From: Clostridiales bacterium
GTDB taxonomy: Bacteria; Bacillota; Clostridia; Oscillospirales; Acutalibacteraceae
Length of the DNA: 10,178 bases
Direction: 5' to 3'
Assembly: GCA_014799585.1 (NCBI GenBank)
Contig: JAAVHU010000013.1
Coordinates: forward strand, 1 to 10,178
The position numbers were made by a program, and so were the translations under genes. The notes beneath the pieces are model-generated. The model saw only the letters and a list, made by a program, of their open reading frames with translations. It was not told the DNA's origin and ran no database searches. Of the stretch, positions 1 through 10,178 are shown in pieces; the first letter of the stretch is position 1, and every line of letters starts with the position of its first letter.

Positions 1-1379
1 AAGTATTCAAGCATTTCACCCTGAACCTTTTTGATTTCCTGAACAGGAACATCAATAAACTTTTTACCGATTGCCGCAACAAGTGTTATAACCTGCTGAG
101 CAAGTGAAAGCGGATGTGTAAGCGGCTGTTTTAAAAGCTCCATAAGCCCCTTACCATAAGTAAGACCCGCTTTTGTTTCTTCATCAAGGTCTGATGAGAA
201 CTGCGTAAACACTTCCATTTCACGATACTGAGCAAGGTCTACACGAAGAGAGCCTGCTGCTTTCTTCATAGCCTTTGTCTGCGCAGCACCGCCAACACGT
301 GATACAGACAAACCAACATTTACAGCAGGACGCTGACCGCTGAAAAACAAATCGCTTTCAAGGAAAATCTGGCCGTCTGTAATAGAAATAACATTCGTTG
401 GAATATAAGCAGAAACATCTCCTGCCTGTGTTTCTATAATCGGAAGAGCGGTAATTGAGCCGCCGCCAAGTTCATCAGAAAGACGGGAGGAACGCTCCAA
501 AAGTCTTGAATGCAGATAGAAAACGTCACCCGGATAAGCTTCACGTCCCGGAGAACGCTCAAGCAAAATTGAAAGTGCACGATATGCTACTGCGTGCTTA
601 CTCAAATCATCATAAACGATAAGACAATCCTTACCCTTATGCATAAAGTATTCTGCAATCGCAGTTGCCGAATACGGCGAAATATACTGAAGTGACGCTG
701 AGTCAGACGCAGTGGAGCAAACAACAATTGTATAGTCCATAGCACCGTTTTTCTCAAGCGTGCTTACAAGCTTTGCAACCGTGGAAGCTTTCTGACCGAT
801 TGCGTTATAAATACAGATACAATCCTTTCCTTTTTGGTTGATAATTGTATCCATTGCGATAGATGTTTTACCTGTCTGTCTGTCACCAATTATAAGCTCT
901 CTCTGTCCTCTTCCTATCGGGAACATAGAGTCTATTGCAAGAATACCTGTTTCAAGAGGTTCGGAAACGGACTTTCTGTCTACAATCGTTGGAGCAGGAT
1001 TTTCAATCAGTCTGAATTCATCAGAAACAATATCGCCCTTTCCGTCTATTGCTTCACCAAGAGAGTTAACAATTCTGCCTATAAAAGCATCTCCAACAGG
1101 AACACCAGCATTCTTATGTGTGCGGCGAACCCTTGAACCCTCGTGAATTTCATTATCATTACCGAAAACAATACATCCAACTGTTGAACGCTTGATATCC
1201 TGCACCATGCCCTTAATGCCGCAGTCAAACACAACGATTTCACCATACATAACATGATCTAAACCGTGGATTGTTGCGATACCATCACCAACACGGATAA
1301 CAGATCCAACCTCTTCACTGTTTGTTTCAAAATCAAAATCTTTAATTTCACTTCTGAGAATAGAAATAATGCCATCTGT
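1..1379 (-). other. alpha-subunit domain of the fusion protein (partial)
   Basis: This region equals a normal atpA from its first N-terminal helix to about 50-60 residues short of the usual end, so the C-terminal helical domain is cut by the window edge. The N-terminal beta barrel, the Rossmann-type core with P-loop, and the [20 protein letters not shown] block are all present and ungapped. The first in-frame Met (residue 215, codon 1250-1248) lies inside the beta barrel, too late to start a functional alpha. Confidence 0.92.
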
Positions 1380-1892
1380 ATCAACAGAAGATGATTTTCT
1401 TGCACCATTAACGATTTTCTCTTTAATACTGCTGATTTTTGATTTAAGACTTCTGTCAAACTGTTTATTGCCTATCTGAATAATAAAGCCGCCAATAAGG
1501 CTTTCATCTTTAACAATATCAATTTTTGCAGAACCTGTTTTTTCTTCTTTGCAAACAAATTCTTCAATACCCTTGAGCTGCTTTTCATCAGGCTCTGTTA
1601 CGCAGATAAGCGTTGCTCTTGCAACCTTATTCTTTTTATCAATCTCTGCTGAATAGGCATCCATAACGCTACCGAATTCATCAACTCTGCATTCTTCTGC
1701 AAGAGCAAGCACAAGAGATTTAACAGCAGAAGAAAAGATTTCATCAACAACCTTTTTCTTTTCATCCTTAGAAACAGACGGGCTGTTTAAAATCTGCATC
1801 AATTCATCAGATGCAGAAAGAATTTTCTTTGCATTTTCAAGCTCTGATACACTGACCTCATTAGAAAGCAGTGCATTAATATAATCATTCAT
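1..1892 (-). CDS. atpH-atpA: ATP synthase delta-alpha fusion subunit (AtpH-AtpA), 3' end beyond window
   Basis: One open frame of 630 full codons encodes both the delta (stalk connector) and alpha (nucleotide-binding) subunits of F1. Residues 1 to about 162 are an OSCP/delta domain: a helical N-terminal part ([30 protein letters not shown]) and the C-terminal signature [19 protein letters not shown] near 131-149. After a short linker (about 163-172, GARKSSSVD), alpha begins with its usual N-terminal helix and strand ([11 protein letters not shown], 179-189; [17 protein letters not shown], 195-211). The P-loop GDRQTGKT is at 336-343, followed by [39 protein letters not shown] and [17 protein letters not shown] translated every codon from 1892 to 3 and found no stop; the P-loop codon at 887 is in phase with the start. 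The start overlaps atpF by 8 bp. An in-frame ATG at 1910 is an alternative start, adding six residues. The fusion reading is firm from sequence; how the protein is assembled is unknown. Confidence 0.93.
1398..1892 (-). other. delta (OSCP) domain of the fusion protein
   Basis: This is the stretch that would be a stand-alone atpH in other bacteria. It encodes about 165 residues against about 177 in E. coli delta. The shortfall is at the N-terminus: helix 1, which in other F1 enzymes helps grip the alpha N-terminus, is reduced to roughly [10 protein letters not shown], or a few residues longer if ATG 1910 is used. The C-terminal signature is intact. Domain limits are estimated from remembered family patterns. 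Confidence 0.85.
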
Positions 1893-2373
1893 TTTCTTCA
1901 CTGCCCTCATTTAAAAATTCATTAAAAATATCACTGTCTGTTTCAGCAGAAACACTTTTGCCCAAAACCTTTTCAGCAGTTTCAATAGCAAGATTTGCAA
2001 TATCTTCCTTTGCTTTTCTTAACTGATTTTCGCAAGCCTCAGCAGACTGCTTTTTTGCAACAGCCTTAATATTTTCAGCATCAGCCTCTGCCCTGTCTAT
2101 AATCTTTTCATATTCAGCCTTAGCAGATTGCTTTGCATCATTGATAATCGTTGCAGCCTCTTGCTCTACACCTGCAATTCTGCTTTCATAATCAGCCATT
2201 TTAGCTTCAGCAGCAGCGTTAGCATCTTCGGCAGTTTTAAATTGCTGTTCTATTAATTCTTTACGCTTATCCATAGTTGTTTTAATCGGCTTAAAAAGAA
2301 ATCTTCTCATAAGCAAATATAAAATAAGTAAATTGATAAGCATAAAGACAAAATTCATGTTAAACTTTAACAT
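1885..2373 (-). CDS. atpF: ATP synthase Fo subunit b
   Basis: Subunit b forms the peripheral stalk, anchoring F1 to subunit a in the membrane through a dimeric coiled coil. The 162-residue product has one N-terminal membrane segment (about residues 7-24, [15 protein letters not shown]), then the family-typical RRFLFKPI junction and a long charged, Ala/Glu/Lys-rich helix (about 34-150) with few helix breakers, as expected for b. The start at 2373 is preceded by an AAAGGAA ribosome binding site about 10 nt upstream; Met6 is a less likely alternative. The C-terminus (NEGSEENE) is acidic, and its TGA stop lies inside the start region of the downstream delta-alpha fusion, so translation is probably coupled. 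It is a plain b: delta is fused to alpha here, not to b as in mycobacteria. Confidence 0.96.
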
Positions 2374-2410
2374 TTAATTAAATTCCTTTCGTTAAAGAAT
2401 TTGTCTTTAT

Positions 2411-2451
2411 CCAAATAAGAGTCGAACAAAATATGGTTCGCTCTTGTTTGG
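2411..2451 (-). promoter_or_regulatory. strong intercistronic hairpin directly after the atpE stop
   Basis: On the transcribed (minus) strand, arms CCAAA-C-AAGAG-CGAAC and GTTCG-A-CTCTT-A-TTTGG pair over 15 bp with one mismatch and one bulged A, leaving a loop of about 8 nt. The stem begins at the base after the atpE TAG. The sequence after it (GATAAAGACAAATTC) has no U-tract, so this is not a standard intrinsic terminator. A role in protecting the atpE mRNA end, or in lowering expression of downstream genes relative to subunit c, is inferred. Confidence 0.7.
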
Positions 2452-2700
<249 letters not shown>

Positions 2701-3489
2701 TTAAGCACTCTGCTTATTTCTTTTTCTTGATTTTTTGCTTTTTTCCTTTTTAGGTTCTTCTTCCTCATCCTCAACAGCTTCCTGCAAATAAAGTGCTGTA
2801 AGGAACACAAAGATATACGCCTGTAAAAGTCCATCAAATATATCAAAATACAGACTCAATACAACAGGTACACCAACCTTAAGAATAGGAATAGCTTTGA
2901 TAAGTTCCATAATTGTAAATGCTGCGATTACGTTACCGAAAAGACGCATGCAAAGTGATAACGGCTTTGTAAACACCTCTAAAATACTAATCGGTGTTAT
3001 AATCCAAACCGGCTTTGTAAATGCCTTTAATCGTCCGCCGACACCCTTGTCTTTAAACGCTGCATATTCAATAAGGACTATGCTTGTGATTGCCAATGCT
3101 GCTGTAACCTGCATACTTTTTGTTGGCGGTTTAAAACCAAACAAACCAATAATGTTTGAAACACCGATGAACAACACAACGCTCATAAGCCATGGAATAT
3201 ACTTTTCTACTTTAGGTCCCATAATACCCTTAAAAAAGTTTTCTGCTTTTTCGTAACAAAGCTCCATAAATGCCTGACGTCTGCTGATTTCACCTTCAAC
3301 CTTAAAGTTGCGTGTGAGGAATATTGCAAGTATCGTTAACACCGCAATAATAATCCATGTTACAACCGTTGCCTCATCAAATGTTACTTTGAAAGAGCCA
3401 ATGCTGAAGCTGAAAACATCTTCAATATTAAGCTGTTCATTGAGTTCTTTCTGCAAGTCCAACTTCATTGTGATAGGAGTAAATATCAT
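2701..3489 (-). CDS. atpB: ATP synthase Fo subunit a
   Basis: Subunit a holds the two ion half-channels and the essential arginine facing the c ring. In this 262-residue product the motif MRLFGNVIAAF places that arginine at residue 182 (R210 in E. coli). Hydrophobic segments lie at about 42-58, 98-117, 126-142, 160-172, 184-201 and 203-237. The C-terminal LLQAYIFVFLTALYL matches the family end, but about 25 residues follow it: an acidic run (EDEEEE) and then a Lys/Arg-rich tail. The position nine residues after the arginine, Glu219 in E. coli, is Phe191; a glutamate occurs at 195. The start at 3489 has GGAGG 7 nt upstream. It is the first gene of the operon; no atpI lies upstream, where the divergent control region begins. 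Confidence 0.97.
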   Translation of the reverse strand: MIFTPITMKLDLQKELNEQLNIEDVFSFSIGSFKVTFDEATVVTWIIIAVLTILAIFLTRNFKVEGEISRRQAFMELCYEKAENFFKGIMGPKVEKYIPWLMSVVLFIGVSNIIGLFGFKPPTKSMQVTAALAITSIVLIEYAAFKDKGVGGRLKAFTKPVWIITPISILEVFTKPLSLCMRLFGNVIAAFTIMELIKAIPILKVGVPVVLSLYFDIFDGLLQAYIFVFLTALYLQEAVEDEEEEPKKEKSKKSRKRNKQSA

Positions 3490-3496
3490 TCACATA

Positions 3497-3501
3497 CCTC
3501 C
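3497..3501 (-). promoter_or_regulatory. ribosome binding site of atpB
   Basis: GGAGG on the minus strand, 7 nt before the ATG at 3489. It fixes the start at that ATG rather than at Met8 of the reading frame. Confidence 0.8.
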
Positions 3502-3554
3502 AATCCTATCTTTATATATGAAGCAGATAAAAGTATTACCTTGCTTTAAAGTTC

Positions 3555-3584
3555 ATTATATCATTTTCAAGTTGTTTTTTGCAA
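3555..3584 (-). promoter_or_regulatory. predicted promoter of the atp operon
   Basis: The minus strand has TTGCAA (3584-3579), an 18-nt spacer and a perfect TATAAT (3560-3555) preceded by TGA. Transcription would start near 3548, giving a leader of about 58 nt before atpB. No other promoter of equal quality lies closer to the gene. Confidence 0.65.
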
Positions 3585-3629
3585 GAAAATAAAAACTAAA
3601 TTTGCAAAAATTCGGTAAAAAATATGAGA

Positions 3630-3656
3630 TTAAATACCGCTCTTTTTGGTAATTAA
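3630..3656. repeat. inverted repeat, possible operator
   Basis: TTAAATACC (3630-3638) and GGTAATTAA (3648-3656) are inverted copies matching at 8 of 9 positions around a 9-nt spacer. The site lies between the two divergent promoters. Operator function is inferred from form and place only; AT-rich DNA gives such repeats by chance. Confidence 0.35.
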
Positions 3657-3700
3657 ACACAAGAATTATACACTTGGTTAATTCTGTTTATACAACTAGT

Positions 3701-3729
3701 TTGACAGAAATAATATGAAACATTAATAT
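3701..3729 (+). promoter_or_regulatory. possible second (upstream) proS promoter
   Basis: A perfect TTGACA (3701-3706) is followed after 17 nt by TAATAT (3724-3729), which matches four of six consensus bases of the -10 box. It lies upstream of the better-matched promoter at 3751-3779. Confidence 0.35.
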
Positions 3730-3748
3730 GTATAAAAATACATTTTTT

Positions 3749-3770
3749 TATTTACATATTTCGGTAAATA
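3749..3770. repeat. inverted repeat over the proS promoter
   Basis: TATTTAC (3749-3755) and GTAAATA (3764-3770) are perfect 7-bp inverted arms around an 8-nt spacer. They cover the predicted -35 box and half of the promoter spacer, where a repressor would block polymerase. The regulator and its binding are inferred. Confidence 0.35.
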
Positions 3771-3779
3771 GTTTATAAT
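3751..3779 (+). promoter_or_regulatory. predicted proS promoter
   Basis: TTTACA (3751-3756), a 17-nt spacer and a perfect TATAAT (3774-3779) form a near-consensus sigma-70-type promoter. Transcription would start near 3786, giving a leader of about 28 nt with the ribosome binding site AAGGAG at 3797-3802. Confidence 0.75.
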
Positions 3780-3813
3780 ATTTCAATACAAATCATAAGG
3801 AGATAGTATTATT

Positions 3814-5253
3814 ATGGCACAGCAAAAGAAAATGGTTGAGGATATTACCTCAATGGATGAAGATTTTGCAAAATGGTATACCGATATTTGCAAAAAAGCA
3901 GAGCTTGTTGAATACACAAGCGTTAAGGGTTGTATGGTAATCAGACCATACGGCTATGCTATATGGGAAAATATTCAGAAAATTCTTGATTCTATGTTTA
4001 AAGAAACAGGTCATGAAAATGTTTGCATGCCTATGTTTATACCTGAAAGCCTTTTACAGAAGGAAAAAGACCATGTTGAGGGCTTTGCTCCGGAATGTGC
4101 GTGGGTAACAGTTGGCGGAAGTGAAGAACTTGAAGAACGTCTTTGTGTTCGCCCAACATCCGAAACACTTTTCTGCGAGCATTTTAAAAATGTTGTTCAG
4201 TCTTACAGAGATTTGCCGAAGCTCTACAACCAGTGGGTTTCTGTTGTAAGATGGGAAAAAACAACAAGACCATTCCTCCGTTCAAGAGAATTCTTATGGC
4301 AGGAAGGCCACACACTTCACGCTACTGCTGACGAAGCAATTGAAGAAACAGAAAAAATGCTTAATGTATATACAGAATTCTGCCAGAAACATCTTGCAAT
4401 TCCTGTTGTTCAGGGTATGAAAACAGAGAGTGACAAATTTGCAGGTGCAGAAAGAACATACTGCATTGAAGCATTAATGCACGATGGTAAGGCTCTTCAG
4501 GCAGGCACATCTCATTATTTCGGAGACGGCTTTGCAAAGGCTTTTGAAATTCAGTATTCCGATAAGGAAAACAAGCTCGTTTATCCGCATCAGACCTCTT
4601 GGGGAATGACAACCCGTCTTATCGGCGCTATCATTATGACACACGGAGATAACAACGGCCTTGTTCTTCCTCCGGCTGTTGCTCCTATCCAGGTTATTGT
4701 TGTTCCTGTTGCGCAACACAAGGAAGGCGTGCTTGAAAAAGCAAACGAGGTTTGCGACAGATTAAAGAAAATCTGCCGTGCTAAAATTGATGATTCAAAC
4801 AATACACCGGGTTGGAAATTTGCAGAATATGAAATGAAGGGTGTTCCAATCAGACTTGAAATCGGGCCAAAAGATATTGAAAACAATCAGTGCGTGATCG
4901 TAACACGCCACAACAGAGAAAAAACCTTTGTTTCACTTGATGAGCTTGAAACCGTTATTCCGCAGAAACTTCAGGAAGTAAGAGACGGCATTTACAACTC
5001 TGCTCTTGAAAACAGAGAACGCAGAACTTATGTGTGCAAAACGCTTGATGAAATCACAAAAGCACTTGACGAAAACGGAGACGGCTTTGTTAAAGCAATG
5101 TGGTGCGGCGATGAAGAATGCGAAGACAAGGTTAAAGAGATTACGGGCGTTGGCTCAAGATGTATTCCTCTTGAACAGGAACAGCTTGCAGACACTTGTG
5201 TTTGCTGCGGTAAACCTGCAAAGCACATGCTTTATTGGGGCAAGGCATATTAA
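3814..5253 (+). CDS. proS: prolyl-tRNA synthetase, archaeal/eukaryotic-like short type
   Basis: This class II synthetase charges tRNA-Pro with proline in the cytosol. The 479-residue length, the lack of an editing insertion between motifs 2 and 3, and the Cys-rich C-terminal domain place it with the short ProRS type of archaea, eukaryotes and many Clostridia rather than the roughly 570-residue E. coli type. Visible sites are RPTSET (113-118), motif 2 [14 protein letters not shown] (154-167), the motif 3 stretch [16 protein letters not shown] (264-279, Arg268), an anticodon-binding domain from about 290, and probable zinc ligands Cys431, Cys436, Cys462 and Cys465. It ends in Tyr, as is common in this type. 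Without the INS domain, Ala-tRNA-Pro clearing would fall to a separate trans-editing protein, not seen here. AAGGAG lies 11 nt before the ATG. galE follows after 37 bp. Confidence 0.98.
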
Positions 5254-5290
5254 TTTAATAAATTATAATTTTTGAAAGAAGGATTATATT

Positions 5291-6307
5291 ATGGCAGTAT
5301 TAGTAACAGGTGGCGCAGGTTATATCGGCAGCCACACCTGCGTTGAGCTTCTTAATGCAGGCATTGATATTGTAATTGTTGATAACTTCTACAACTGCAA
5401 AAAATCAAGCATAGACAGAATTAAGGCACTTACAAACAGGGATTTCGCATGGTATGAATGCGATATCCGTGACCGTGAGGGCATGGATGCAATCTTCAAA
5501 AAAGAAAAGATTGATTCTGTTATTCACTTTGCAGGCTTAAAAGCTGTTGGTGAAAGTGTTGAGAAACCGCTTGAATATTTTGATAACAATGTAAACGGAA
5601 CTCTTGTTCTGCTTGATGTTATGAAAAATAACGGCTGTAAGAAAATTGTATTCTCATCATCTGCAACTGTTTATGGTATGAACAATGTTTCTCCGCTTAA
5701 CGAAGATATGCAGGTTGGCGGCGTAACAAACCCATATGGCAGAACCAAGTTTATGATTGAATGCATCTTACAGGATTTATATGTATCAGATAACGAATGG
5801 TCTATCTGCCTTCTTCGTTATTTCAATCCTATCGGTGCTCATAAGAGCGGAACAATGGGCGAAGCTCCAAACGGAATTCCAAACAACCTTATGCCATACA
5901 TAACGCAGGTTGCTATCGGTAAAAGAGAACAGCTTAACATTTTCGGAAATGATTATGATACACACGATGGAACAGGCGTTAGAGATTATATTCACGTTGT
6001 TGACCTTGCACTCGGTCATGTTAAAGCAGTTGAAAAGGTGGACGGCGAAAACGGACTTTTCATTTACAATCTTGGAACAGGAAAGGGCTACAGCGTGCTT
6101 GATGTTGTTAAGGCATTTGAAAAGGCTTCTGGCCAAAAAGTTCCTTATCAGATTCAGCCTCGCCGTGCAGGTGATATCGCAACCTGCTATTCAGATCCAA
6201 GCAAGGCATTAAACGAGCTTGGCTGGAAGGCTGAAAGAGATATTGAAGAAATGTGTGAAGACAGCTGGCGTTGGCAGAGCCAGAACCCGAATGGTTATCC
6301 GGATTAA
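5291..6307 (+). CDS. galE: UDP-glucose 4-epimerase
   Basis: This short-chain dehydrogenase-type enzyme interconverts UDP-glucose and UDP-galactose using bound NAD+. It supplies UDP-galactose for the Leloir pathway and for surface polysaccharides. At 338 residues it is as long as E. coli GalE, and key positions share the numbering: GGAGYIG for NAD binding (7-13), Ser124 in FSSSATVYG, and Tyr149 with Lys153 in PYGRTK. The C-terminal substrate domain ends in WRWQSQNPNGYPD. Position 299, Tyr in E. coli, is Cys here, a change linked to acceptance of the larger N-acetylated sugars. The ribosome binding site AGAAGGA lies 7 nt before the ATG. It probably shares the proS transcript, and a strong terminator follows 12 bp after the stop. 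No other gal genes are present. Confidence 0.97.
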   Translation: MAVLVTGGAGYIGSHTCVELLNAGIDIVIVDNFYNCKKSSIDRIKALTNRDFAWYECDIRDREGMDAIFKKEKIDSVIHFAGLKAVGESVEKPLEYFDNNVNGTLVLLDVMKNNGCKKIVFSSSATVYGMNNVSPLNEDMQVGGVTNPYGRTKFMIECILQDLYVSDNEWSICLLRYFNPIGAHKSGTMGEAPNGIPNNLMPYITQVAIGKREQLNIFGNDYDTHDGTGVRDYIHVVDLALGHVKAVEKVDGENGLFIYNLGTGKGYSVLDVVKAFEKASGQKVPYQIQPRRAGDIATCYSDPSKALNELGWKAERDIEEMCEDSWRWQSQNPNGYPD

Positions 6308-6319
6308 TAGATAAAATTT

Positions 6320-6347
6320 AAGCACTCTCAATGAGAGTGCTTTTTCT
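6320..6347. terminator. intrinsic terminator between convergent galE and the small membrane gene
   Basis: AAGCACTCTC and GAGAGTGCTT pair over 10 bp around a 3-nt loop, followed on the plus strand by TTTTTCTT. It therefore ends the proS-galE transcript. On the minus strand the same stem is followed by TTAAATTTTAT, a weaker U-run, so it may also serve the convergent recD2-mreB-membrane gene transcript. Confidence 0.9.
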
Positions 6348-6354
6348 TATACTT

Positions 6355-6630
6355 TTATTTAAACAATCCGTATTTTGATTGAAGCCAAACAATAACAACC
6401 AAATCCACAACAAACATTACAAGCGATGCAATGCCTGCTATGATTGCTTTTTTATTTCTGAATGCAGTATCACTGGAAAGCTCTGCACCTTTACACTTCA
6501 TAACCAACGGAGCAACGATGCCTGCAACACCGAGTATCGGGCATATACCAATTGTGCAAACACCAACAATAGCCGATATAAACGATAAGCGTGAAATCTT
6601 ATCAAGTACATTTTCATTTTCGTGCTTCAT
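6355..6630 (-). CDS. small two-region membrane protein, function unknown
   Basis: The 91-residue product has a charged N-terminus (MKHENENVLDKISR), a long hydrophobic stretch at 15-44 that could be a membrane helix with a hairpin or re-entrant turn around Pro31, a polar linker (KCKGAELSSDTAFRNKK, 45-61) and a second membrane helix at 62-83. The layout and the KKAIIAGIASL motif recall the small DUF4190-type membrane proteins of Firmicutes, but I cannot confirm membership. AGGAGA at 6642-6637 lies 6 nt before the ATG and overlaps the stop codon of the upstream mreB-like gene; only 10 bp separate the genes, so it is almost certainly co-transcribed and perhaps translationally coupled. No function is proposed. 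Confidence 0.8.
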   Translation of the reverse strand: MKHENENVLDKISRLSFISAIVGVCTIGICPILGVAGIVAPLVMKCKGAELSSDTAFRNKKAIIAGIASLVMFVVDLVVIVWLQSKYGLFK

Positions 6631-6640
6631 ACTGTTTCTC

Positions 6641-7669
6641 CTATTTTATCCTTACATCCTGCTTTGTTCTGAAACGATAGCCATACTGATCAAGCAGATG
6701 CATTTTATTCAAAGCAACCATTGCGCCCTTTGCAACGCAAAGTTCTGCCCTTGGAGCAATCGTAACATCAAGATTAAGAGCCTCTGAAAACATTCTATCA
6801 ATTCCGTACAGTTCAGAGCTTCCACCAGTTAAGATAACCTCACCCGATGTTATATCCGCCATAAGCTGCGGAGACGTTCTCTCAAACAAAGCAATAGCTG
6901 AATTCGCAAGCTGATCAAAAATCGGTTTTAAGCACTCATACAGCTCATTTCCTGTTATTTCAGCAATACCGGGAAGACCTGTAACCATATCTCTGCCCTT
7001 AACCTGCATAACAACATCCTCTTCACGAGGAAAAGCACCTGCAATATTTTTCTTTACCTCTTCGGCAGTTCGCTTTCCTATAAGAATTCCATATTCGTTA
7101 TGAAGATATTTTGTTATTTCATCATCAAAATGATTGCCTGCAAGACGAAGCGTTTCAACCTGATTCATAGTGCCTTGGCTGACAACTGCCATATCCGTTG
7201 TTCCGCCGCCGATATCAATAACAAATACACCTGCGGGAAGAAGCGGATCAACACCTGCACCGAAAGCGGCACAAAGTGCTTCTTCAACAAGGCAAACAGA
7301 CCTTGCCCCTGCTGTTATCAAAACAGACAAAAGCGTTCTTTTTTCAACATCTGTGCTTAACGCAGAAATTGAAGCAACCACTCTTGGCTTAAACAGGCTT
7401 TTTCCGATAACCTTATCCATAAAGAATTTAACCATTTGCTGCGCAATGGAATAATTCGTTACAGCGCCGTTTACAATCGGCTGAATAACTGTTACGCCGT
7501 CCGGCTCTCTTCCTTCAAGATAATAGGCACGCCTGCCCGCATATAATATTTTTTCAGTTTCGGTATCATAAGCAACATAAGACGGCTCATTTACAACAAT
7601 GCCTTTACCCGGCACGGATATAACGATTGAGCTTGAACCTAAGTCTATACCTAAATCGTAACCAAACAT
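6641..7669 (-). CDS. MreB/Mbl-family bacterial actin
   Basis: MreB-family proteins are actin-fold ATPases that form membrane-bound filaments guiding cell-wall synthesis. The 342 residues match the family length (347 in E. coli) and order: phosphate-1 loop DLGSSS (9-14), NEPSYVA (27-33), the catalytic-region Glu in VEEALCAAFGAG (Glu129/Glu130), phosphate-2 DIGGGTTD (152-159), and the adenosine site LTGGSSELYGID (280-291). Three positions depart from consensus: phosphate 1 is usually DLGTAN, the Pro of EEPMAAAIG is Ala131, and the usual GGGALL is GGSSEL. It is therefore a divergent paralogue, so I give no symbol. mreC and mreD are not adjacent. The start has AAGGA (7683-7679) 9 nt upstream; recD2 ends 33 bp before it. 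Confidence 0.93.
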   Translation of the reverse strand: MFGYDLGIDLGSSSIVISVPGKGIVVNEPSYVAYDTETEKILYAGRRAYYLEGREPDGVTVIQPIVNGAVTNYSIAQQMVKFFMDKVIGKSLFKPRVVASISALSTDVEKRTLLSVLITAGARSVCLVEEALCAAFGAGVDPLLPAGVFVIDIGGGTTDMAVVSQGTMNQVETLRLAGNHFDDEITKYLHNEYGILIGKRTAEEVKKNIAGAFPREEDVVMQVKGRDMVTGLPGIAEITGNELYECLKPIFDQLANSAIALFERTSPQLMADITSGEVILTGGSSELYGIDRMFSEALNLDVTIAPRAELCVAKGAMVALNKMHLLDQYGYRFRTKQDVRIK

Positions 7670-7702
7670 ACTTTCATTTCCTTATAATAATTTAAATAAA
7701 TG

Positions 7703-9925
7703 TTACTCCAAGAACGGATTATTGTCAACAGTTAAAAAATAACCAAGGGCACTGTATCGCCTTGTTTCCTTATCATTTTCAACCATTGTCCGAACAGAAT
7801 TCTCGTTTCCTACAAGAACGATAAGATTTTTCGCTCTTGTTAACGCTGTATAAAACAGATTTCTGTAAGACAGCTTCTGCGGAGTTGCAAGAACAGGCAT
7901 AACAACAGCTTCAAATTCAGAGCCCTGACTTTTATGTACGGTCATTGCATAAGCAAGTTCAAGCTGCTTCGCATGTTCAAGAGAATACATAGCTTCCCTG
8001 TCATCAAAAGTAACATTCAGAATATCATTAGCCTTATCAATATTCGTTAATATTCCGATATCTCCGTTAAACACACCTGTGCCGTTTTCGCCTGATTTAA
8101 ACCACGGAACATCATAATTATTCTTAATCTGCATAACCTTATCTCCTTCACGAAGAACATAGCCGTTATGCTTTATTTCAGCCTTTCCCCTTGCGGCCGG
8201 ATTCAGCTTCTGCTGTAAAAGGAAATTAAGATTTTCCGTGCCTACATCACCCTTTCGGCTTGGGCACAGCACCTGAATATCCGTTAAAATATTATATCCA
8301 TAGCTTGTCGGCAATCGGCGGGTAACAAGATCCACAATCTTTTTTGAAGCGTTATAAGGTGCATTTTCTTTCAAAAGAAAGAAATCAGAGCTTATATCGT
8401 TGTGTGACATATCGGGCATATTGCCTCTGACAACCTCGTGTGCATTCGTTACTATCAGGCTTTCCATTGCCTGCCTGAAGATTTTATCAAGTTCAACAAC
8501 AGGAATCATTCCGCTTTCTGTTAAATCCTTAAGCACATTGCCCGCACCAACAGCAGGAAGCTGATCTTTATCACCAACCATAATCAGCCTTGCACTCATA
8601 GGCAAAGCCTCAAGAAAGCTGTCAAACAGCTTAATATCAACCATTGAAAGCTCATCAATAATAACTGCATCAACATCAAGCTTATTTTTTCTGTTATACA
8701 CAAATGACGGCTCGGTTGCTCCGTCCTTATATTCAACCTCAAGCAGACGATGAATTGTTTTTGCATCAAAGCCTGTAAGCTCACTCATTCTTTTTGCGGC
8801 TCTGCCTGTGGGCGCAGCAAGGGCAACATTCATTCCCCTGTTTTTCATAAGGGCAATAATACCACGCACAGTTGTTGTTTTACCTGTACCGGGTCCGCCC
8901 GTTAAAATAAGCATACCTTGATTAACAGCAATTTCGATAGCCGCCCTCTGCTTATCATCAAATTCAATATGATTATACTGCTCAAAAGCAAAGATTTCAC
9001 TTGAATCCACATTAATCTGCCTCGGCGGATAATTTACCATAACCTTAATCCTGTCTGCAACAGCAGTTTCAGCATCATAAATTTCGGGTGTGAACAAAAA
9101 TTCTTTTCCGTTAATTTCAGCGGAAACAAGCTGTTGCCCCTGCAAGGCATTATCAATTGCTATTTCAGCGGCATCTTCCGAGCATTCAAGATAATTCATT
9201 GCTGATTTTAAAACGGCTGTTCTCGGTAAACAGGTATGCCCGTTATCCAGATTATGGCGAACGATATATACAACACAAGCCTGACACTTATAATCAAACA
9301 TATCTGGAGAATCCAGCCTATCCGCAATCTCCTCCGCTCTTTCAAAGGAATAGCCTTCTTCACAAACAAAAGCAAATGGATTATCGGAAATAATATCATA
9401 TGCAGCAGAATGAAACAGATTATAAGCCTGAAATGCTTCCGCTTGGCTCAAGCCGAGCTTTGTTAATGCCTGCATCGTTTCTCTTGAAGCAAACTGAGCC
9501 TTGAATTCTTCTTGGATTTTGCGAGCCCTCGGCTTGCTGATTCCCTTGATAGAAGAAAGGCGGTCTACATCATTTTCAATTACATCAAACGATTCTCTGC
9601 CAAATGCTTCAACAATTTTAACGGCAGTTGCTTCTCTGATACCCTTGATAATTCCGCTTGCAAGATAGCGGAGAATACCCGCTTCATTTTCGGGCAAGGT
9701 TTGTTCAACAAGGCTTGCTTTAAACTGATTGCCGTAGGTTGAATGATTCACCCATTCACCCATCAGACGCACCTCTACACCCTCTGCAAGCTCAGGAAAA
9801 CTGCCCACAACCGTTATAGGCTCACCCTCAGAAGAAATAACCATAACGGTATAGCCGTTTTCACTGTTAAAATAAGTTATCTCCTCAATCGTACCTATTA
9901 AATTTTCAAGCACTGATTCTGCCAT
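7703..9925 (-). CDS. recD2: RecD2-type ATP-dependent DNA helicase
   Basis: RecD2 is a superfamily 1B helicase moving 5' to 3', found in bacteria that lack RecBC and acting in DNA repair and replication-fork upkeep. With the chosen start the protein has 740 residues. An N-terminal domain (IGTIEEITYFNSENGYTVM, near 10-28) and helix-hairpin-helix repeats (SGIIKGIREATA and SSIKGISKPRARKI) fill the first 190 residues and distinguish RecD2 from RecD. Motif I is GGPGTGKTT (343-351), motif Ia APTGRAAKRM (371-380), motif II IIDELSMVD (422-430), motif III GDKDQLPAVGAG (451-462), motif V VHKSQGSEF (663-671), and motif VI YTALTRAKN (692-700). A GTG at 9934, three codons earlier, is open, but AGGTGA lies 5 nt before ATG 9925, so the ATG is preferred. 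It probably heads the recD2-mreB-membrane gene operon. Confidence 0.96.
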   Translation of the reverse strand: MAESVLENLIGTIEEITYFNSENGYTVMVISSEGEPITVVGSFPELAEGVEVRLMGEWVNHSTYGNQFKASLVEQTLPENEAGILRYLASGIIKGIREATAVKIVEAFGRESFDVIENDVDRLSSIKGISKPRARKIQEEFKAQFASRETMQALTKLGLSQAEAFQAYNLFHSAAYDIISDNPFAFVCEEGYSFERAEEIADRLDSPDMFDYKCQACVVYIVRHNLDNGHTCLPRTAVLKSAMNYLECSEDAAEIAIDNALQGQQLVSAEINGKEFLFTPEIYDAETAVADRIKVMVNYPPRQINVDSSEIFAFEQYNHIEFDDKQRAAIEIAVNQGMLILTGGPGTGKTTTVRGIIALMKNRGMNVALAAPTGRAAKRMSELTGFDAKTIHRLLEVEYKDGATEPSFVYNRKNKLDVDAVIIDELSMVDIKLFDSFLEALPMSARLIMVGDKDQLPAVGAGNVLKDLTESGMIPVVELDKIFRQAMESLIVTNAHEVVRGNMPDMSHNDISSDFFLLKENAPYNASKKIVDLVTRRLPTSYGYNILTDIQVLCPSRKGDVGTENLNFLLQQKLNPAARGKAEIKHNGYVLREGDKVMQIKNNYDVPWFKSGENGTGVFNGDIGILTNIDKANDILNVTFDDREAMYSLEHAKQLELAYAMTVHKSQGSEFEAVVMPVLATPQKLSYRNLFYTALTRAKNLIVLVGNENSVRTMVENDKETRRYSALGYFLTVDNNPFLE

Positions 9926-9930
9926 AATTT

Positions 9931-9936
9931 TCACCT
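9931..9936 (-). promoter_or_regulatory. ribosome binding site that sets the recD2 start
   Basis: AGGTGA is a perfect match to part of the extended Shine-Dalgarno sequence and lies 5 nt before ATG 9925. It overlaps the alternative GTG at 9934, which has no such site in front of it. Confidence 0.65.
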
Positions 9937-9941
9937 GAACA

Positions 9942-9950
9942 ATTGTACCA
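9942..9950 (-). promoter_or_regulatory. possible extended -10 promoter of recD2
   Basis: The minus strand reads TGGTACAAT, an extended -10 element with a five-of-six TATAAT match. No good -35 box lies 17 nt upstream (TTTTAA). The predicted transcription start, near 9935, would leave a leader of only about 10 nt and clip the ribosome binding site, which lowers confidence. Confidence 0.35.
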
Positions 9951-9960
9951 TAAAACAGAC

Positions 9961-9991
9961 AAAATTAAAAGAGCAGTCTTGCGACTGCTCT
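9961..9991 (-). terminator. intrinsic terminator of tuf
   Basis: On the minus strand AGAGCAGTC and GACTGCTCT pair over 9 bp around a GCAA tetraloop of the stable GNRA class, followed by TTTTAATTTT. It starts 22 bp after the tuf stop and insulates recD2 from the strong tuf transcript. Confidence 0.9.
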
Positions 9992-10013
9992 AAAATTTTT
10001 TGTAAATCAGAGA

Positions 10014-10178
10014 TTACTCGTTGATAGCTGTAACAACGCCTGAACCTACTGTTCTACCGCCTTCACGGATAGCGAAACGAAGACCTTCTTCGATAGCGAT
10101 AGGAGTGATGAGTTCAACGTCCATAGTTACGTTATCGCCAGGCATACACATTTCTGTGCCTTCTGGAAGAGTGATAAC
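10014..10178 (-). CDS. tuf: elongation factor Tu, C-terminal end (5' part beyond window)
   Basis: EF-Tu carries aminoacyl-tRNA to the ribosome as a GTP complex. Only the last 54 residues are in the window, forming the end of beta-barrel domain 3: [19 protein letters not shown], then [16 protein letters not shown] and the final TAINE before TAA. This ending is almost invariant in bacterial EF-Tu, so the call is secure in spite of the short length. The GTPase domain and any upstream neighbour (commonly fusA) lie beyond the right edge. Its own terminator follows. Codons look more biased toward C-ending forms (ATC, AAC, GAC) than those of its neighbours, as expected for a very highly expressed gene. 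Confidence 0.97.

Follow-up and report, generated by a model that had tools for sequence, protein, structure and literature searches.

The F1 head of ATP synthase contains three alpha subunits and one delta; the textbook rule is one delta and one stalk per F1, and the size of the c-ring is generally taken to determine the number of ions per ATP. A locus in which delta and alpha lie in one reading frame raises the question of whether the two genes are truly fused and, if they are, how many deltas and stalks each head carries. We analyzed the window, a stretch of 10,178 nucleotides (JAAVHU010000013.1 positions 1-10,178, equivalent to G000:C13:1-10178), in which the 3' end of this frame coincides with the start of the contig. 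Taken as a whole, our best explanation is that the two genes are truly fused, that the fusion is old and conserved, and that the F-type ATP synthase operon around it is otherwise ordinary; we consider it likely to be correct. The larger point concerns stoichiometry and an evolutionary series, because natural fusions of this kind are expected to place three deltas on each head and put the rule of one delta and one stalk to the test in living enzymes.

Delta and alpha in a single reading frame

On the minus strand, the frame from 3 to 1910 runs without a stop over 636 codons, 630 of them counted from the ATG at 1892, and is short of about 40 C-terminal codons when compared with relatives of about 672 amino acids. 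Residues are numbered from this ATG unless stated otherwise. The relevant features of the window are the following:

3..1892, minus strand: delta-alpha fusion gene, 630 codons from ATG 1892, 3' end missing at the contig end
1626..1892, minus strand: delta N-terminal domain, residues 1-89 (AlphaFold helices, profile alignment)
1395..1625, minus strand: delta C-terminal domain, residues 90-166 (Pfam OSCP; AlphaFold strands and helices; aligns to 9jc1 chain I)
1380..1394, minus strand: linker, residues 167-171 (AlphaFold; no in-frame ATG, GTG or TTG in or near it)
1341..1379, minus strand: alpha N-terminal helix, residues 172-184 (AlphaFold at a low pLDDT of 44-59; alignment)
3..1340, minus strand: beta-barrel of alpha, its nucleotide-binding domain (GDRQTGKT included) and the greater part of its C-terminal domain (Pfam, TIGR00962)
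1885..1892, minus strand: 8 bases shared by the end of b and the beginning of the fusion, with 1892 as the start (ORF coordinates)
1885..2373, minus strand: atpF, subunit b, 162 amino acids, the only PF00430 match in the genome
2452..2673, minus strand: atpE, subunit c (translation, locus annotation with profiles)
2701..3489, minus strand: atpB, subunit a (translation, locus annotation with profiles)

Within this one frame the Pfam domains OSCP, ATP-synt_ab_N, ATP-synt_ab and ATP-synt_ab_C follow each other in that order, each over its cut-off. The delta part is identified by an OSCP (PF00213) match of 91 bits against a gathering cut-off of 22.3 and by six N-domain helices plus a C-domain in the AlphaFold model, while the alpha part is identified as F-type (atpA) by an NCBIfam TIGR00962 score of 739.9 bits against a cut-off of 484.45 and by an intact GDRQTGKT, the Walker-type nucleotide-binding motif of alpha. 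Identity with the N-ATPase (alternate F1F0) type was rejected, TIGR03324 reaching 586.3 bits against a cut-off of 750.5 in a gene that lacks its C-terminal 40 or so codons. The initial annotation had described delta and alpha as one polypeptide with conserved motifs in both domains, a description that these matches bear out, and neither a stop nor a frameshift was found at the junction, where the frame is open. Its observation that the C-terminus of delta runs straight into the alpha N-terminal helix also agrees with the AlphaFold model, in which a helix at residues 149-166 is followed by five residues and a helix at 172-184. Free alpha chains align with the window protein from residue 169 onward.

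The minus strand of the window reads a-c-b and then the delta-alpha frame. Gamma, beta and epsilon fall outside the window and are found 3' of the fusion in all six other same-genus loci, where the standard operon order, as originally proposed, holds. Subunit a carries a strongly charged, Glu/Lys-rich C-terminal tail of about 25 residues (window 2701-2780, minus strand). The remainder of the window (3814-10178, translations judged by eye) encodes a prolyl-tRNA synthetase, a GalE-like epimerase, a small membrane protein, an MreB/Mbl-like protein and a RecD2-like helicase, and the source contig extends beyond 33 kb at this other side (match at C13:33256-33477).

Conservation of the fusion in related genomes

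A search with residues 1-200 returned 400 relatives, and all 120 of those listed combine OSCP and alpha domains, on contigs of up to 579 kb and with a length of 671-675 amino acids in 104 of the 120; the relatives counted are clusters, many of them near-identical, and not independent species. Among named assemblies, the fusion occurs in MAGs under the names Eubacterium sp., Ruminococcaceae UBA3323 and uncultured Clostridia. In the family sample of 398 genomes, 114 of which have an OSCP match, the fusion is the only delta and the only atpA in seven of the seven same-genus genomes seen, six of them 98-99% complete and the seventh, the window's own, 67.6% complete. Among the listed family genomes that lack a match, none belongs to this genus. 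Each of the seven has one atpA by TIGR00962, one OSCP match and one b gene, and searches with the TIGR00962 and OSCP profiles revealed no second atpA or delta elsewhere in these genomes. Among 49 genomes chosen for a fused locus, one atpA was present in 44 and two in the remaining five (G251, G148, G320, G104 and G484).

The 41 fused loci in the family sample were read by frame length and by the part of OSCP that was matched. Eleven carry a full or nearly full delta, including those of all seven same-genus genomes; 19 match only the C-half of OSCP in a frame of 575-641 codons, one of them (G015) below the OSCP cut-off, and another 11 combine the C-half with a frame of 738-754 codons.

An assembly or annotation artefact that joined two genes might be suspected from the state of the source genome, which is incomplete and in 50 contigs, and from the contig end that cuts the gene. 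The same architecture is present, however, in the seven same-genus genomes, in assemblies L114-L119 and in the 120 listed relatives, which come from several sources, and the probability of such an artefact is negligible. Because same-genus genomes and listed relatives carry the same fusion, chance or misassembly is excluded as its cause, and the locus is not the single-assembly outlier that it might have been when first described.

The junction and the possible production of free alpha

If most chains were cleaved in the linker, or if ribosomes started alpha internally, the ratio of three alpha to one delta would be restored. In-frame ATG, GTG and TTG codons were scanned over junction residues 160-205 (counted along the frame of 636 codons) in 18 rows that represent 17 distinct fused genes, L052 and L118 being one locus. 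No start codon was found in this region in ten of the 17, among them the window, L114-L117 and L119, which speaks against this explanation, while the other seven contain one to three, located at residues 166-167 (late in the last helix of delta) in four genes, at residue 184 in two and otherwise at single positions. There was no conserved junction Met over 131 fused proteins, the best column containing 16; L061 (G044, 692 amino acids), which stands elsewhere in the trees and is counted apart there, has kept a Met at the junction. Under lenient rules, nine of the 17 genes contain, in the region of residues 60-205, an in-frame start that is preceded by a purine match of 4 bases or more (4-5). 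This count is in favor of internal starts; against them, the window has no start with such a match as far as residue 205, and no position recurs in more than two of the 17. In the alignment of the 131 fused proteins the linker is short, Ser-rich and variable, as a cleaved segment might be, but no conserved cleavage motif was seen in it by eye. On balance, cleavage or internal initiation as a way back to the usual ratio appears unlikely. An internal start as the general route to alpha was rejected, as no start is general among the 17 distinct genes and none is present in the window. Since the window has no junction start codon, normal initiation cannot make alpha alone there, and standard re-initiation of alpha seems unlikely from the sequence.

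An F1 with three alphas, each fused to a delta, would carry three deltas as long as the chains stay whole, and to judge from its genes this number is likely for the window's type. Alpha made solely as a delta-alpha chain would leave three covalently tethered deltas on each F1 head, and each alpha would have a C-domain able to bind b tethered to its N-terminus. The earlier notion that the fusion joins two natural contact partners stands insofar as the delta C-terminus leads into the alpha N-terminal helix; it is not merely that, as delta is also tripled, a consequence for stoichiometry that had been missed. In mycobacteria, delta is fused to b. Like the window, this b-delta type joins delta to another stator subunit, but with b as the partner delta need not be tripled; as the window has b as a gene of its own (1885-2373), the mycobacterial type was rejected for it.

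Structure and constraint of the delta domains

With a mean pLDDT of 62.4, the AlphaFold model for the window protein is poor in alpha and was used for delta alone. It places the helices of the N-domain at residues 2-11, 15-27, 29-35, 42-52, 55-66 and 70-88 with a block pLDDT of 72-86, and gives the delta C-domain a block pLDDT of about 70-83, decreasing to 60 at its end. Compared to the unfused delta L022, the N-domain of the window is 11 residues shorter due to internal gaps of 7 and 4 residues. A profile alignment of 47 aligned fused deltas (41 after the program filter) to the unfused deltas of the family was global, with a probability of 99.8.

Between the window and L114, L115, L116 and L117, dN/dS of the N-domain was about 0.25, 0.17, 0.15 and 0.29, compared to 0.08-0.13 for the C-domain and 0.03-0.05 for alpha, values which indicate that the N-domain is under purifying selection and not decaying. 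When pairs with an alpha identity of 83-86% were considered, unfused deltas (29 sequences, 142 pairs) exhibited identities of 42% in the N-domain and 43% in the C-domain, while fused deltas (17 sequences, 16 pairs) exhibited 47% and 67%. These identities suggest a trend, in pairs that are not independent, for the C-domain to be the more constrained half of fused deltas. In known enzymes, it is through the C-domain that delta binds the b stalk.

Fusion types in the wider family

Annotation of 61 loci with purpose-built profiles distinguished full delta-alpha (type F), delta C-domain-alpha (type C) and b'-delta C-domain-alpha (type B). The order of fused loci is a-c-b-[fusion]-gamma-beta-epsilon wherever the contig allows, except in L062, where no a was found upstream; in L087 the profile annotation revealed no atp operon. 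Type B comprises 14 loci, L063 (5386-7608), L066, L068-L072, L097-L101, L104 and L105, in which alpha is preceded, within one chain of about 740-780 codons, by a b-like membrane helix and the delta C-domain; each of the 14 also has a b gene of its own upstream. Pfam agrees with these types for 10 representatives, the b domain scoring below the gathering score in two of three B proteins. The B relatives number 731 proteins at E <=0.001, and of the 120 listed all have OSCP and 109, as read by eye, the b domain. An AlphaFold model of b-delta-alpha, with a mean pLDDT of 48.9, was used for helix order alone.

For type C, one query returned 305 relatives, some with isolate-like names. The form without the N-domain is present in entries that have no MAG label, Acutalibacter caecimuris, Acutalibacter sp. 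1XD8-33, Neglecta sp. X4 and Pseudoflavonifractor sp. 60, which are probably isolates, so that questions of stalk number can be put to cultured bacteria. The class sample (167 genomes, 104 with an OSCP match) added type F in two more families (G1093; G1064, G1013 and G981) and type C in several more. In the phylum sample (348 genomes, 290 with an OSCP match) the matches listed, which are the best-ranked ones, are standalone deltas only and have no bearing on fusions.

Several of the annotated loci exhibit further peculiarities. Two delta N-domains precede the C-domain and alpha in L059:6527-8881 (785 amino acids), and two delta C-domains precede alpha in L096:7023-9065 (681 amino acids). Delta is a C-domain alone, in a frame of 73-81 amino acids beside a separate alpha gene, in L089:4975-5217, L090:6149-6367 and L091:6241-6462. 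L129:6221-6982 encodes a b-delta C-domain fusion of 254 amino acids apart from alpha; it forms a long tree branch, and its operon order is beta-epsilon followed by a-c-[b-delta]-alpha-gamma. Gamma and beta share one 797-codon frame without a stop between them in the related loci L081:915-3305 (minus strand) and L135:7563-9953 (plus strand), where an in-frame ATG precedes beta, which may start there unless a gamma-beta chain is made. Two consecutive, near-identical c-subunit genes are present in the atp operons of L059 (5443-6013) and L094 (8488-8976). The epsilon frame measures 90-106 amino acids in 12 of the 14 B operons, 110 and 131 in the other two, and about 135-145 in most other operons; the short epsilon of the B operons looks as if its C-terminal arm had been lost, and that of the C-type L088 is likewise short.

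Phylogeny of fused and separate genes

In an alpha-core tree of 102 rows (20 duplicate or short rows dropped), the window falls into a starred clade whose 42 rows comprise 22 of type C, 17 of type F, 2 S and 1 doubled C, type B forms one clade, and the character fused versus separate needs 6 changes. A single origin of all fusions was rejected, one clade of all fused rows having a p-AU of 0.0005 in this tree. Careful trees were built for two hand-picked subsets, one of 44 rows rooted on unfused rows and one of 63 rows with class loci. The 44-row tree places B as sister to the window's clade (100/98), the F rows L094 and L095 as basal, and the C rows in two separate places inside the window's clade. 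The 63-row tree unites all 15 F rows in one clade (100/98) and has L094, L127, L095 and L126, together with one long C branch, L103, near the base of this clade.

Inside the F group, two rows, L006 and L007, have separate delta and alpha genes, with a TAA followed by a GTG and with an overlapping TAATG. A clade of the F and C rows of the window's clade apart from these two split rows was rejected in the 44-row tree (p-AU 0.0001), and therefore two fissions or several fusions are needed; L006 and L007 could be either fissions or separate fusions. Because such close lines have separate genes, either the enzyme can do without the fusion or there was more than one fusion event. Read most simply, the trees suggest an old full-length fusion, present in at least five families and older than the loss of the N-domain in its clade, and a full-length form at the base of the class-wide clade, where the N-domain would have been lost twice. 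The best reading of the trees is that other lines reached fusions without the N-domain separately, and in another group, which has a free C-domain beside fused ones, loss of the N-domain may have come first.

Comparison with known systems and the number of stalks

The initial annotation was aware of no precedent for a delta-alpha fusion, but there is one. In Bacillus PS3, Ueno et al. 2025 (PMC12229609) deleted the delta N-domain and fused the C-domain to alpha, which yielded a delta-dN-alpha enzyme with up to three stalks and three a subunits (two on average), a and b incorporated at a higher ratio, an H+/ATP of 5.8 versus 3.0 and an equilibrium motive force of about half. As natural delta-alpha fusions that lack the N-domain they mention one of Acidaminococcus fermentans and two UniProt entries, examples from outside the window's lineage, and they note that in PS3 the C-terminal region of delta is contacted by one alpha only and the N-terminal region by two (PMC12229609). 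As in these systems, the window joins the C-terminus of delta to the N-terminus of alpha through a short linker, keeps the other subunits and has no separate delta or alpha; unlike them, it retains a complete though shorter N-domain. The values for stalk number and H+/ATP are measurements on the engineered PS3 enzyme. Of 47 solved sequences, chain I of 9jc1, a delta-plus-alpha chain, is the only one that matches the window across the junction, covering 114 query positions with one gap of 2 residues and a nearly identical junction length; from its title and make-up we infer that PDB 9jc1 is the structure of Ueno et al. 2025. The kind of fusion is already known and the N-domain-bearing form is what differs; in the open-licence literature searched, we found no record of the latter or of b-delta-alpha.

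The family thus includes a form that retains the very domain said to restrict the number of stalks. According to Ueno et al. (PMC12229609), the N-domain sits on the threefold axis and limits the enzyme to one stalk, from which it follows that three copies of the N-domain cannot all sit on this axis. Either one axial N-domain would go with one stalk and two idle deltas, or the N-domains would yield and two or three stalks would assemble. The first possibility, in which one C-domain holds the b2 stalk and the fusion does no more than prevent the detachment of delta and set its supply, is credible at somewhat less than even odds. It is favored by an N-domain that is retained, folded in the AlphaFold model and under purifying selection, by the axial argument itself (PMC12229609), and by an operon with one b and one a gene, as in ordinary enzymes. 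On the other hand, the N-domain is the less constrained half and has gone in two groups inside the clade, which would be odd if it seated the only stalk, and the engineered enzyme gained stalks through delta fusion together with truncation (PMC12229609).

Tethering would make the grip of the N-domain on alpha partly redundant, and sister lines have lost this domain. In the alternative with several stalks, more than one b2 stalk could be seated, each with its own a subunit, and more stalks would mean more ions per ATP and work at a low proton or sodium motive force, as in PS3 delta-dN-alpha. More than one stalk in the window's type, the reading towards which we lean, has nearly an even chance, the N-domain that is kept and constrained there counting against it; the chances are higher for types C and B. 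In type B, three b' strands would be bound covalently to each head, and the free b gene could supply their partners. Three stalks around one catalytic head, as several stalks in the window's type would predict, are known from the vacuolar ATPase, which has three E-G peripheral stalks (PMC6131620); these consist of E and G subunits, whereas the window's enzyme is F-type by sequence.

We tentatively propose, as a possibility somewhat short of an even chance, that the Clostridia contain a series leading to several stalks, from delta-alpha with the N-domain to forms that have lost it, with a separate clade adding b, and with several a subunits per c-ring. If this were true, three membrane-anchored strands per head would be forced covalently in the b-delta(C)-alpha clade, ions per ATP would be well above 5, and fermenters could work at low gradients. 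Natural ATP synthases with several stalks become testable through this gut-type lineage of Clostridia.

Rnf context

RnfC was found over its cut-off in six of the seven same-genus genomes, the window's own genome, at 67.6% completeness, having no match over the cut-off. In the same-genus genomes G293 and G231, epsilon is followed at a distance of less than 2 kb by an rnfC gene of the same orientation. Of 14 control genomes, 12 had rnfC family matches, which were over the cut-off in four. The presence of RnfC loosely fits an ATP synthase that works on a modest gradient and is at most suggestive. At L052:12522-13910 and L057:1-999, in two same-genus genomes, rnfC comes after the atp operon in the same orientation, with a HAD-like hydrolase and one small gene in between, the neighbors being named by eye.
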